64,000 nucleotides of DNA from NCBI GenBank assembly GCA_902597175.1, contig CACJWN010000002.1, positions 1-64,000 on the forward strand, given 5' to 3'. This DNA is from an uncultured Pelagibacteraceae bacterium. GTDB taxonomy: Bacteria > Pseudomonadota > Alphaproteobacteria > Pelagibacterales > Pelagibacteraceae. Numbering within the stretch: position 1 is the first letter of the stretch; each line of letters starts with the position of its first letter. Positions 21,961 to 46,932 of the stretch are shown here, in pieces. The notes beneath the pieces were generated by a model. That model saw nothing but the letters and a program-made list of their open reading frames with translations, was not told where the DNA came from and did not search any database. A program made the translations under genes and the position numbers.

Positions 21961-22323
21961 ATGTATGAATTATTTGCTAATCTTACATTAATTACACATT
22001 TAATCTTTATCTTATTTGTTATTTTTGGTGGATTGCTCTTCTTTATTTTTTCAAAAGTAGTCTATATCCATCTTCCTGCATTATTATGGGGAATTTATAT
22101 AGAACTAAATAATTCTGTTTGCCCATTAACATATTTAGAAAATTGGTTTTTAATTAAAGCTGAGTTGGCAACTTATTCTAATGGTTTTATCAACAACTAT
22201 CTTTATCCAATAATTTATCCCGAGGGCTTAACTAATAACATTCAGATATATCTTGGCATAACATTGATAGTCATTAATATTTTAATATACGGATTTATTT
22301 TTAAAAATTTTAAAAGATTTTAA
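21961..22323 (+). CDS. DUF2784-like small membrane protein
   Basis: LITHLIFILFVIFGG...ELNNSVCPLTYLENWF pattern; TAA directly abuts the tmRNA 3' end. Confidence 0.7.
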   Translation: MYELFANLTLITHLIFILFVIFGGLLFFIFSKVVYIHLPALLWGIYIELNNSVCPLTYLENWFLIKAELATYSNGFINNYLYPIIYPEGLTNNIQIYLGITLIVINILIYGFIFKNFKRF

Positions 22324-22348
22324 GGGGCGTTCTGTTGCCAGGTGCCCC
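22324..22348 (+). repeat. tmRNA 3'-terminal segment; intact reference copy of the direct repeat
   Basis: GGGGCGTTCTGTTGCCAGGTGCCCC; same element at 21915, 20024 and 19246. Confidence 0.85.
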
Positions 22349-22582
22349 AAGACCCCGTAACTTAATTAACTAAGTTAATTAAGCTGCAAGTGCAAATTTT
22401 TGATTTGCATTTGTAAATTAGCCCGTTACGTCGGAACCATCTCGTACGAAAGAACAGCCTTTAGACACCCGTCGATCCTAATTCACCCCCGTAAGTTGTA
22501 AATGGTGGAGGTGGTGGGTACTGCCCCCACGTCCGTGATGTTTATTACGAAATTCGTTTATCGTCATAGTTGGAAAACCAAC
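22324..22582 (-). ncRNA. ssrA: Circularly permuted (two-piece) tmRNA
   Basis: Minus strand: T-arm GTGGGGGCAGTACCCAC, acceptor CACCTCC plus encoded CCA (22503-22505), 12-nt spacer, then GGGGGTGAATTAGGATCGACGGGTG; CACCTCC pairs with GGGGGTG; tag GCAAATCAAAAATTTGCACTTGCAGCTTAA = ANQKFALAA*; 3' GGGGC...GCCCC element. 5' end approximate. Confidence 0.93.
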
Positions 22583-22588
22583 ACTAAT

Positions 22589-22616
22589 AATATAAAACTC
22601 TTTTGAAGAGATTCAA
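22589..22616 (-). promoter_or_regulatory. Putative sigma70 promoter for tmRNA
   Basis: Minus strand TTGAAT-16 nt-TATATT just upstream of the acceptor piece. Confidence 0.55.
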
Positions 22617-22629
22617 TAATTAATTCATA

Positions 22630-43246: not shown

Positions 43247-43651
43247 ATGAAAAAAATTTTAGGTTGTTTGCTCGGACTCACTTTACTAACTGGTTGCGCA
43301 GAGTCACTAGCTCTATTAGGACCTACCTCTACCGCAGTAACCGGTGGAAAAATTACACAATCAGCTTTTTCTACAGCAGTAAATTATGGAGTAAAAAAAC
43401 AAACTGGAAAAAGTGCGATGGAACATGTGATGACATACGCTGAAGAAATGAGTCCACAGAAAAAAAAGAAAGAGCCCTGCCTATCATTTGCTGAGAAAAC
43501 TAACTCAGAAATTTGTGCTATTGTGAAAACGCAATTAAAAATAACTAAATCGAAGATCTTAGAAATATCAAAAGAAAAATCTTTAAAAGATCTTACATCA
43601 TCACTTCAGTCCAAAATAAATAAAAAATCTAAAATTAAGTACATAGATTAA
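43247..43651 (+). CDS. Small predicted lipoprotein, unknown function (tandem copy 1)
   Basis: Lipobox LTGCAESLALLG; GVKKQTGKSAMEHVMTYAEE. Confidence 0.75.
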   Translation: MKKILGCLLGLTLLTGCAESLALLGPTSTAVTGGKITQSAFSTAVNYGVKKQTGKSAMEHVMTYAEEMSPQKKKKEPCLSFAEKTNSEICAIVKTQLKITKSKILEISKEKSLKDLTSSLQSKINKKSKIKYID

Positions 43652-43689
43652 CAAATCTTAAACGAAATCAGTCTAGCCAATTTAAGGTC

Positions 43690-43718
43690 TTGACAACCAT
43701 GGGTTGTGTTAATAAAAC
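43690..43718 (+). promoter_or_regulatory. Putative sigma70 promoter of second lipoprotein gene
   Basis: TTGACA-17 nt-TAAAAC in the intergenic gap. Confidence 0.4.
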
Positions 43719-43760
43719 TAATGCGCTCACAATTAACTTTTAATTAACGATGAAGCAGAT

Positions 43761-44195
43761 ATGAACCAAGTAAAACAAATTTCAAACATGAAAAAAATAT
43801 TGATTTTATTATCAACGATTTTCTTACTTAATGGGTGTGCTGAATCTTTAGCGTTGCTCGGTACTGGCACGTCTAACGGAAAAATATTGCAGTCTTCTCT
43901 TAATTCAGCAGTAAGTTATGGAGTTAAAAAACAAACAGGAAAAACTCCTTTGGAACACGTTATTGCTTACGCAGAAGAAAAAAATCCTCAGAAAAAAAAA
44001 GAAACCTGCATTTCTTCATTTGAAATAACAAGATCTGAATTTTGCACGATTATTAAAAAACAAATTAAGTCTAAAAGCACTGATATGATGGAAAAGACTA
44101 CAGAAATTGCTAAAGAATATCCAAAAAATATAATTAAAGAAATATCTAAGATTGAAAAGATAGCCAAAAAATCAGTTATTTATAATAGAAGGTAA
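43761..44195 (+). CDS. Small predicted lipoprotein, unknown function (tandem copy 2; likely start MKKILILL)
   Basis: Lipobox LNGCAESLALLG; GVKKQTGKTPLEHVIAYAEEKNPQKKK; paralogue of 43247-43651. Confidence 0.75.
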   Translation: MNQVKQISNMKKILILLSTIFLLNGCAESLALLGTGTSNGKILQSSLNSAVSYGVKKQTGKTPLEHVIAYAEEKNPQKKKETCISSFEITRSEFCTIIKKQIKSKSTDMMEKTTEIAKEYPKNIIKEISKIEKIAKKSVIYNRR

Positions 44196-44256: not shown

Positions 44257-45549
44257 TTATGCAGCCAAAGCTTGTTTGATATCTGCGACAATGTCATCTG
44301 GATGTTCTATACCAATTGATAATCGAACATAACCTGGCGTAACACCTGCAGCTAACATTTCTTGCTCAGTTAATTGACTGTGAGTTGTTGTAGCTGGATG
44401 AATTGCTAAGCTTCTAGCATCACCAATATTTGCCACGTGGTAAAGCATTTTTAAGTTATCAATAAACTTAGCTCCTGCTTCTTTTGTGCCTAGATCCATA
44501 CCTATCAAAGATCCATAACCACCTTGCATATATTTTTTAGCTCTATCTCTAATTTCACCTTGGTAATTAGTTGGATAGATTACTTTTTTAACTTTTTTGT
44601 GCCCATCTAAGAAATTAACAACTTTTTCAGCATTGCTACAATGTTGTTTCATTCTTAAAGCTACAGTTTCCAAACCTTGAATGATTTGAAAAGCGTTGAA
44701 TGGACTTAATGGAGCACCCAAGTCTCTCAATAAAACCACTCTAGCTCTAATAACAAATGGAATATTAGCACCAGTTAATTGTGGTACTGCATCTGCCCAA
44801 ACTGCACCGTGATAACTTTGATCTGGCTCATTTAATAGAGGTTGTCTTTTTCTATCTTTAATCCAATCAAAGTTTCCACCATCTACTATTATTCCTCCAA
44901 TTGAAGTACCATGACCACCAATATATTTTGTCAAAGAGTGCATTACGATTGCAGCTCCATGAGCTAAAGGTTTACATATAACTGGTGAAGCTGTGTTATC
45001 GATAATTAAAGGTATACCTTTTTTTCTACCGATATCTGAAACTTCTTTAATTGGAAAAACACGAAGATATGGATTTGGAAGAGTCTCACCGTAGTAAGCT
45101 CTTGTTTTATCATCAGTCACTTTTTCAAAGTTTTTTGGATCTGCAGGATCTGCAAATCTAACTTCAATACCTTGTTGTCTTAAAGTATTTTTAAATAAGT
45201 TTACTGTGCCTCCATATAAGTCAGTCGAAGCAACGATGTTATCTCCAGCTTGTGCTAAGTTTTGTATACACATTGCTGAAGCAGCTTGACCTGATCCAAC
45301 CGCGCATGCCGCCACACCGCCTTCAAGCGCTGCAACTCTTTTTTCTAGCACATCAACAGTTGGGTTCATTATACGTGTGTAAATGTTACCAAACTCTTTT
45401 AGACCAAATAAATTTGCAGCATGTTCTGCATTTTTAAATTGGTAAGAAGTTGTTTGATAAATCGGAACTGCCACAGCTGTTGTAGTAGGATCAGCTCTAT
45501 AATCACTACCATGTAAGCCAATAGTTTCCGGATGTTTAAAATCAGCCAT
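44257..45549 (-). CDS. metY: O-acetylhomoserine aminocarboxypropyltransferase / sulfhydrylase
   Basis: PLP Cys/Met metabolism fold; GLHGSDYRADPTTTAVAVPIYQTTSY, HSLTKYIGGHGTSIGG. Confidence 0.93.
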   Translation of the reverse strand: MADFKHPETIGLHGSDYRADPTTTAVAVPIYQTTSYQFKNAEHAANLFGLKEFGNIYTRIMNPTVDVLEKRVAALEGGVAACAVGSGQAASAMCIQNLAQAGDNIVASTDLYGGTVNLFKNTLRQQGIEVRFADPADPKNFEKVTDDKTRAYYGETLPNPYLRVFPIKEVSDIGRKKGIPLIIDNTASPVICKPLAHGAAIVMHSLTKYIGGHGTSIGGIIVDGGNFDWIKDRKRQPLLNEPDQSYHGAVWADAVPQLTGANIPFVIRARVVLLRDLGAPLSPFNAFQIIQGLETVALRMKQHCSNAEKVVNFLDGHKKVKKVIYPTNYQGEIRDRAKKYMQGGYGSLIGMDLGTKEAGAKFIDNLKMLYHVANIGDARSLAIHPATTTHSQLTEQEMLAAGVTPGYVRLSIGIEHPDDIVADIKQALAA

Positions 45550-45592
45550 TGATTTTCCCCCTTATTGTTTCTCTTGTCGTTTCTTTTTTCAT
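45542..45592 (-). CDS. Possible 16-aa mini-ORF overlapping the metY start
   Basis: MKKETTRETIRGKING*; GGAGG ten nt upstream; TGA lies inside metY ATGGCTGA. Confidence 0.25.
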   Translation of the reverse strand: MKKETTRETIRGKING

Positions 45593-45607: not shown

Positions 45608-46666
45608 TTACGCTACTTTTCCATACTCTTTCATGTGCTTAGGTATACGTTTATTATTACCGTACATGAAATGGTTGGACATATTTTCCCTAAATCTGCT
45701 TGCCGGAACTCTTAATCCAATAGCTTCAGCTACCTCTCTGATATGTATTGGACTTGCTCCACAGCAAACACCTATGTACTTGACGCCTAAATCAAATACC
45801 TCTTTTGCAAAATTTCCAATCTCATATCTATTGCATTGCAATGGATCCAAAGCAGTAGGGAAAGTTCTGCCATGAGGAGATGGACAACTACATCCATTAT
45901 TATCTGGAAGATTAAAAAATGTTGGATGCTTTTCAGTTGTTCTGTAAGGAACAGGTAAAGCAGCAACATGACATTTTAATTCTTTTCTTATTTTTTTAAT
46001 ATAAGGAAGCATTGTAGCCGGACCTCTAAAACAATTCAAACCAACAACATCAGCTCCAAGTTCCTCTAACTTTTTGCACGTTTCAAGAATCGTATAACCA
46101 TCTCTCATTTTATTTTCACCCATTGGGGAAATCGTAATGACTGATGGAAGACCAGATTTTTTTATTTCTTCAAGTGCCGCAAATGCCTCTTCAGCATAGT
46201 AAAAAGTTTCACCAATTATAAAATCAGCTTTCTCTTCTTTTGCCCAAGTTACCATTTCAGCAAACATATTTTTTACTTGAGTTTGAATTTTAGGGTTATT
46301 TGCTTCCCAAATATTACTGTTAGAAATGTTACCGGCCATCAAACTTACACCTAAACCCTTAGGTGGATTATCAGCACATTTTCTTGCAATTCTTAAAGCA
46401 GCTCTATTCAAAGGCTCAAGCAAATGCTCCTTATCGATCACTCTCATTTTTTCTCTATGACCATTATATGTAAATGCTTGAACGATGTTAGAACCTGCGT
46501 GTTGAAATTCTTTATGAAGATTTTCCAATACTTCAGGATGTTCGAGTGCTACTTCAGGAACAAATTCACCAGAAGTTAAATAACCTCTTCGTTCCATTTC
46601 AAATAAATAACCTTCAGCACAAATTAAAGGTTTTTTCTTTAATGTTTCTAATAAAATATTACTCAT
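45608..46666 (-). CDS. bhmT: Betaine-homocysteine S-methyltransferase
   Basis: Homocysteine methyltransferase domain; VGLNCFRGP, GVCCGASPIHIREVAEAIG. Confidence 0.9.
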   Translation of the reverse strand: MSNILLETLKKKPLICAEGYLFEMERRGYLTSGEFVPEVALEHPEVLENLHKEFQHAGSNIVQAFTYNGHREKMRVIDKEHLLEPLNRAALRIARKCADNPPKGLGVSLMAGNISNSNIWEANNPKIQTQVKNMFAEMVTWAKEEKADFIIGETFYYAEEAFAALEEIKKSGLPSVITISPMGENKMRDGYTILETCKKLEELGADVVGLNCFRGPATMLPYIKKIRKELKCHVAALPVPYRTTEKHPTFFNLPDNNGCSCPSPHGRTFPTALDPLQCNRYEIGNFAKEVFDLGVKYIGVCCGASPIHIREVAEAIGLRVPASRFRENMSNHFMYGNNKRIPKHMKEYGKVA

Positions 46667-46724
46667 GTTCTCTCCAATTAACCGGAGAGAGATGAAATCT
46701 GTAGAGGGAGTTTATTGATTTCAT
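46659..46724 (-). CDS. 21-aa leader ORF MKSINSLYRFHLSPVNWREHE overlapping the bhmT start
   Basis: AAAAAGGAG SD six nt upstream of ATG; TAA inside bhmT ATGAGTAAT. Confidence 0.55.
   Translation of the reverse strand: MKSINSLYRFHLSPVNWREHE
46669..46690 (-). promoter_or_regulatory. Hairpin sequestering the bhmT Shine-Dalgarno
   Basis: TCTCTCC-GGTTAATT-GGAGAGA perfect 7-bp stem; GGAGAGA is the bhmT SD. Confidence 0.55.
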
Positions 46725-46729
46725 CTACT

Positions 46730-46785
46730 ACTCCTTTTTAGTACTTCGGCATATGCCAGGTGTACAATATGGTTCAAATACCCGG
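46730..46785 (-). promoter_or_regulatory. SAM-V (SAM-II/SAM-V-like) riboswitch overlapping a Shine-Dalgarno
   Basis: CCGGGTATTTGAACCATATTGTACACC...AGTACTAAAAAGGAG matches the SAM-II/V core (TTTxAACC.TATTG ... xxTAAAAAGG). Confidence 0.75.
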
Positions 46786-46804
46786 TTTAATTTTAGATTG
46801 TTCC

Positions 46805-46833
46805 AAAAAAAAACCACCGGCTAAAGCGGTGGT
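46805..46833 (-). terminator. Intrinsic terminator between the two SAM aptamers
   Basis: ACCACCG-CTTTAGC-CGGTGGT followed by T8. Confidence 0.88.
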
Positions 46834-46845
46834 CTGAAGACTTGT

Positions 46846-46898
46846 GCGCTTTAGCTGGATTTATAAAGCGCCCGCAAGTTGCCTTAACTCGGCGCTGA
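46846..46898 (-). promoter_or_regulatory. SAM-II riboswitch
   Basis: AGCGCCGAGTTAAGGCAACTTGCGGGCGCTTTATAAATCCAGCTAAAGCGC; P1 AGCGCC/GGCGCT and conserved ATAAAT..AGCTAAA. Confidence 0.9.
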
Positions 46899-46902
46899 CA
46901 GG

Positions 46903-46932
46903 TATATAGCAAAAATTTTATATCTCTGTCAA
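46903..46932 (-). promoter_or_regulatory. Sigma70-like promoter of the bhmT leader
   Basis: TTGACA-18 nt-TATATA just upstream of SAM-II. Confidence 0.7.

Follow-up and report, generated by a model that had tools for sequence, protein, structure and literature searches.

Background

The published account of SAM-V riboswitches is one of direct occlusion of the SD (PMC6061858, PMC9481103, PMC2704228). The GGAG of SAM-V is typically the SD of the regulated gene and lies within about 10 nt of its start (PMC2704228). SAM binding has been demonstrated for the SAM-V aptamers of metY and bhmT, where a helix (P2a) covers part of the SD (PMC6061858). The SAM-II/SAM-V tandem of bhmT, found in Candidatus Pelagibacter ubique (SAM-V: RF01826), is a standard example of two-level riboswitch control, and in its usual description, too, it is SAM-V itself that covers the ribosome site. 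In translational platforms of the TPP thiM type, the ligand frees an anti-SD strand, which then hides the SD of the gene. For the SAM-II metA leader of Sinorhizobium meliloti a standby mechanism has been proposed by the authors of that study (PMC9373788); we also looked at SAM-II loci and at four metA leaders, one of them with a terminator. Our literature search, whose scope did not include the original SAM-V paper (Poiata et al. 2009), returned no report of an anti-SD together with SAM-V.

Architecture of the bhmT leader

The window analysed here is a stretch of 64,000 nt of SAR11 DNA, with Pelagibacteraceae as its best relatives, which carries on its minus strand a SAM-V aptamer, a GGAG, a 21-codon ORF, two inverted repeats and bhmT, in this order. 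It shares with the tandem of Candidatus Pelagibacter ubique the aptamer, the gene and the expected polarity (SAM = OFF), and probably also the order of the two riboswitches. The minus-strand leader reads AAAAAGGAG, with the GGAG (hereafter GGAG-1) at 46734-46731. The relevant features, all on the minus strand, are:

46830..46905, minus: SAM-II-like aptamer, candidate upstream half of the tandem (RF00521; its placement agrees with the published SAM-II/SAM-V tandem)
46804..46832, minus: intrinsic terminator between SAM-II and SAM-V (CCACCG, loop, CGGTGG, T run), as read from the sequence
46728..46792, minus: SAM-V aptamer including GGAG (RF01826)
46771..46772, minus: CC of UUUGAACC, which with SAM bound would form P2a with the GG in GGAG-1 (P2a model of PMC6061858)
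46731..46734, minus: GGAG-1, SD-like end of SAM-V and here the anti-anti-SD strand, pairing with CTCC 46687-46684 as the base of helix 1
46717..46725, minus: inner 5' arm of helix 1, GATGAAATC, perfect complement of 46699-46691
46691..46699, minus: inner 3' arm of helix 1, GATTTCATC, perfect complement of 46717-46725
46684..46690, minus: anti-SD TCTCTCC, shared switch strand, pairing with GGAG-1 (helix 1 base) or with SD-2 (helix 2)
46669..46675, minus: SD-2 GGAGAGA, the SD of bhmT, with 5 nt between GGAG and ATG; covaries with the anti-SD
46659..46724, minus: 21-codon leader ORF MKSINSLYRFHLSPVNWREHE followed by a stop, probably incidental
45608..46666, minus: bhmT, betaine-homocysteine methyltransferase (ORF; relatives at 68-97% identity)
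45542..45592, minus: 16-codon mini-ORF MKKETTRETIRGKING followed by a stop, between bhmT and metY and overlapping the metY start, with its own SD AAGGAGG
44257..45549, minus: metY, the following gene in the operon (ORF; O-acetylhomoserine sulfhydrylase family)

The SAM-V aptamer scores 72.2 bits with the RF01826 covariance model, above the gathering score of 41, and this copy is a predicted SAM binder. The SAM-II-like aptamer stays under its gathering score (22.0 bits and E 0.008 with RF00521, against 36). The product name of bhmT is taken from the published SAR11 tandem locus, and that of metY from similarity to the genes behind SAM-V in SAR11. GGAG-1 lies 64 nt from the bhmT ATG (46666-46664), rather than within the approximately 10 nt typical of SAM-V; this spacing is a matter of the expression platform and leaves the assignment of the aptamer to SAM-V unchanged.

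The preliminary description of this locus, made from the sequence, had reported two perfect inverted repeats behind the aptamer, and both are confirmed. The first (GATGAAATC/GATTTCATC) has 9 bp, or 10 bp with one more pair. In the second, TCTCTCC (46690-46684) pairs perfectly with GGAGAGA (46675-46669), which is the own SD of bhmT, so that the hairpin said to hide this SD is indeed present and supports the suggested control layer beyond the aptamer. What had been missed is that TCTCTCC is complementary to the GGAG of the aptamer as well. Consequently, the two hairpins share one strand, and their pairings are mutually exclusive: helix 1 joins GGAG-1 and the anti-SD around the inner repeat (16 bp in the window, 15-24 bp in relatives, all hairpins listed), and helix 2 joins the anti-SD and SD-2. 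A single strand complementary both to the SD of the gene and to an upstream strand governed by the aptamer marks an SD/anti-SD/anti-anti-SD translational platform, and TCTCTCC is such a strand.

In 1000 mononucleotide shuffles of the leader the longest perfect arm reaches at least 9 bp in 9 cases and at least 7 bp in 90, which makes the repeats of the window unusual, yet alone not decisive. The strict pattern TCTCC-N4-12-GGAGA-N2-8-ATG has a single site in the 988-kb genome (the other match is the same site on the opposite strand).

Some further observations concern the same leader and the remainder of the window. The apical loop of helix 1 contains a C-rich motif (CCCTC or similar) in 44 of 55 relay leaders (see below), in the window at about 46708-46702 on the minus strand. 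Pairing of this loop with GGGU in P1 of the aptamer was considered and dropped by eye, as the loop does not change along with P1 in leaders where P1 has another sequence; no other partner was found. Mini-ORFs related to MKKETTRETIRGKING precede metY in the bhmT-bearing members of the genus that were examined, and where bhmT is missing they come immediately after the relay; here translational coupling seems to be genuine, with metY as the coupled gene. In the tmRNA region 22321-22620 (minus strand), the alphaproteobacterial tmRNA model and the permuted one both give a match. At 43247-44195 (plus strand), a pair of neighbouring small ORFs that resemble each other, start like lipoproteins and share the motif GCAESLALLG is apparently a tandem duplication.

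Relay and direct leaders among relatives

Our sample comprises 110 loci of bhmT relatives together with SAM-V matches across the order and across the genus, giving 207 distinct leaders that were sorted by the distance between GGAG and gene. The gene is far from the aptamer in 110 leaders (46 bhmT, 62 metY, 2 unassigned), and GGAG-1, anti-SD and SD-2 occur in the same order in every one of these; we refer to them as relay leaders. The other 97 (96 metY, 1 bhmT) are direct: the gene starts right behind the GGAG, without a relay, at a GGAG-ATG spacing of 4-8 nt in the order-wide subset. Seven mmuM leaders are also direct and were left out of the counts. In the 55 relay leaders parsed in detail, helix 2 has 5-9 bp and a loop of 5-11 nt, SD-2 is 4-7 nt from the ATG, and GGAG-1 pairs with the anti-SD over at least 4 contiguous bp in all 55.

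The two classes also differ inside the aptamer, which reads UUGAACC in 109/110 relay leaders and UUGAACU in 97/97 direct leaders, counts that come from related leaders, do not amount to an independent-sample test and may reflect only a few evolutionary events. The differing base is at the aptamer position that is paired with the SD as P2a in PMC6061858.

A relay also precedes bhmT at locus L141 (G066), where the SAM-V coordinates match the intergenic regions printed in PMC2704228 for the laboratory strain P. ubique HTCC1062; by these coordinates, HTCC1062 has the same relay as the window. Genus members without bhmT have the relay in front of metY instead. Within one genus, metY is found either with a direct SAM-V and GAACU (L172, L173, L174, L189) or with relay, mini-ORF and GAACC (L185, L188, L190-L196), as though the relay had once preceded a bhmT that is now lost. 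The sole bhmT found with a clear direct SAM-V (L050 and L175, same contig) has GAACU and no relay, and thus forms a natural control. At L148 (plus strand, about 578-720) SAM-V and an intact helix 1 are present with no SD-2, start codon or bhmT behind them, and this leader is possibly decaying.

Predicted switching

We propose, with good confidence, that the 60-nt stretch between SAM-V and bhmT would work as a translational relay, that is an expression platform of SD, anti-SD and anti-anti-SD. With SAM absent, GGAG-1 would pair with CTCC of the anti-SD, extended by the inner hairpin of GATGAAATC (helix 1), leaving SD-2 open and bhmT translated. With SAM present, the aptamer would pull the GG of GGAG-1 into P2a with the CC of UUUGAACC; the freed anti-SD would then pair with SD-2 and shut bhmT. 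Because helix 1 is transcribed before SD-2, ON would be the default unless SAM is bound first.

SAM binding was imitated in ViennaRNA by blocking two bases, the GG of GGAG-1, with the SAM-V pseudoknot not represented. Under this constraint the mean openness of SD-2 drops from 0.40 to 0.04 in 51 leaders, and from 0.38 to 0.005 in 64 distinct platforms of the genus (similar at 18 C). Before SD-2 is transcribed, helix 1 has a probability above 0.9 in 51/51 leaders, and 0.999 in the window. At equilibrium, helix 2 is favoured by 1.8 kcal/mol in the window leader, so its switch would depend on folding during transcription.

What the analysis shows is the sequences and how far they are conserved, two pairings that exclude each other in silico, and an aptamer base that correlates with the type of leader. 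We infer that SAM would flip the relay inside the cell, in which case SAM = OFF probably acts indirectly, via the relay. In SAR11, both the mRNA and the protein of bhmT go up when sulfur is limiting (PMC5069961), which fits this polarity.

We read the relay as a modified form of the direct mechanism published for SAM-V, from which it differs in that GGAG-1 is 64 nt from the start and serves as one strand of a switch. With the thiM type it would share the ligand-freed anti-SD strand that hides the SD of the gene. In contrast to thiM, the anti-anti-SD strand is itself SD-like and is used directly as ribosome site in sister leaders, hence a single class of aptamer occurs in a direct and in a relay form side by side.

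Alternative explanations

In the preliminary description the control was assigned to the leader ORF: SAM-V would govern the leader ATG, and the translating ribosome would melt helix 2 and hand over to bhmT, possibly with the peptide stalling as a sensor. The ORF, its SD and its overlap with the bhmT start are present as described, except that the ATG is at 46724 (six nt past GGAG) instead of 46725; the TAA (46661-46659) falls inside codons 2-3 of bhmT. In favour of such coupling, this well-spaced ORF is open from the same start and reaches the bhmT start in 14/15 distinct platforms of the window's clade, and the base of helix 1 is weak in most of this clade. However, ATGAGTAA alone creates a stop in both other frames, and the leader ATG sits inside helix 1. 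Outside this small clade start codon and frame are not conserved as attenuation or coupling would demand: 20/28 distinct bhmT platforms from other SAR11 genera have no ATG, GTG or TTG at the distance of the ORF start, and among the 62 metY-linked relay leaders of the window's genus the ORF ends near the next start in 41, runs on past it in 15, stops within 4 codons in 5 and lacks an ATG in 1, whereas each of the 62, the 21 with a broken ORF included, keeps helix 2 and the base of helix 1. Relatives with a disrupted frame and both hairpins and the gene start intact, which the preliminary description had named as refuting its reading, were found, the ORF either stopping after 2-4 codons (L195, L241, L244, L267, L339) or being frameshifted (L196, L275, L280, L293, L297, L328). 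The bhmT-linked copies and the metY-linked ones encode unrelated peptides, most of the variation in codons 1-8 alters the amino acid (at minimum 9 replacement against 4 silent changes), and the codons for RFHLSP fall in RNA that is paired anyway. This reading-frame evidence rules out the peptide as a conserved sensor and speaks against leader translation as the opener of SD-2, so we regard the coupling explanation as improbable. The leader ORF is probably incidental, although it may have a minor coupling role within the window's own clade; most likely the bhmT SD is unlocked by RNA pairing and not by a peptide.

It might also be argued that helix 2 is a plain SD-hiding hairpin, which only lowers or thermally tunes bhmT translation, and that the complementarity to GGAG-1 is a by-product. 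Helix 2 is indeed the part that is clearly conserved and covarying by itself (the SD-2/anti-SD score is reached by 0/500 shuffles) and the one that the window prefers at equilibrium; for the helix 1 base, in a register-forced alignment, covariation is modest (12/500 shuffles reach the score and 208/500 the two-sided pair count). Likewise, RNAalifold on the raw alignment of 28 leaders, the register of which drifts between clades, misses helix 1 altogether and recovers only 5 pairs of helix 2, probably due to the varying helix lengths and the mutual exclusion of the helices. Since GGAG-1 and SD-2 are nearly identical, an anti-SD complementary to both is partly automatic, and therefore it is the inner helix and the CC/CU correlation that carry the argument for the relay. 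Helix 1 extends past the SD-like part in its 15-24 bp, and its inner portion is particular to the individual leader: once the outer 6 bp are taken away, the native mean is -8.62 kcal/mol, while permuting the 3' arms across relatives gives -4.52 (sd 0.41), with -5.86 as the best of 1000 permutations, none of which (0/1000) reaches the native value. Shuffling only the stretch between the SD-like copies abolishes helix 1, lowering the probability of its base from 0.47 to 0.03 (p=3e-9). Inner stability, shuffle test and CC/CU split say that helix 1 is more than a by-product of two similar SDs, and a plain hairpin would moreover leave bhmT uncoupled from a conserved SAM-V aptamer; we give this explanation little chance. 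Still less credible is a standby site, at which 30S would load on GGAG-1 without SAM and move to the distant bhmT start. There is a precedent in S. meliloti metA, where the riboswitch SD is required though translation starts far downstream (74 nt), with no relay described there (PMC9373788). Against it, every leader examined allows GGAG-1 to pair into helix 1, bhmT is preceded by a well-spaced SD of its own, and loading on GGAG-1 would free the anti-SD and thereby close SD-2.

Conclusions

The relay therefore remains our preferred reading of this leader. A broader scenario, which we hold to be rather doubtful, is that two interchangeable SAM-V output modes evolved in SAR11, direct occlusion (GAACU) and anti-anti-SD relay (GAACC), with the base change in P2a tuning the aptamer to its platform and with a short translated leader as a second opener of the bhmT SD in the window's genus.

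SAR11 bacteria rank with the ocean's most abundant cells. Should the relay hold true, the real output device of their bhmT tandem would be the part that is cut off in aptamer-only constructs, and measurements on the aptamer alone would miss the step that sets translation. With 97 direct and 110 relay leaders, this one class of aptamer offers a natural comparison for how the output of a riboswitch can change without a change of sensor.
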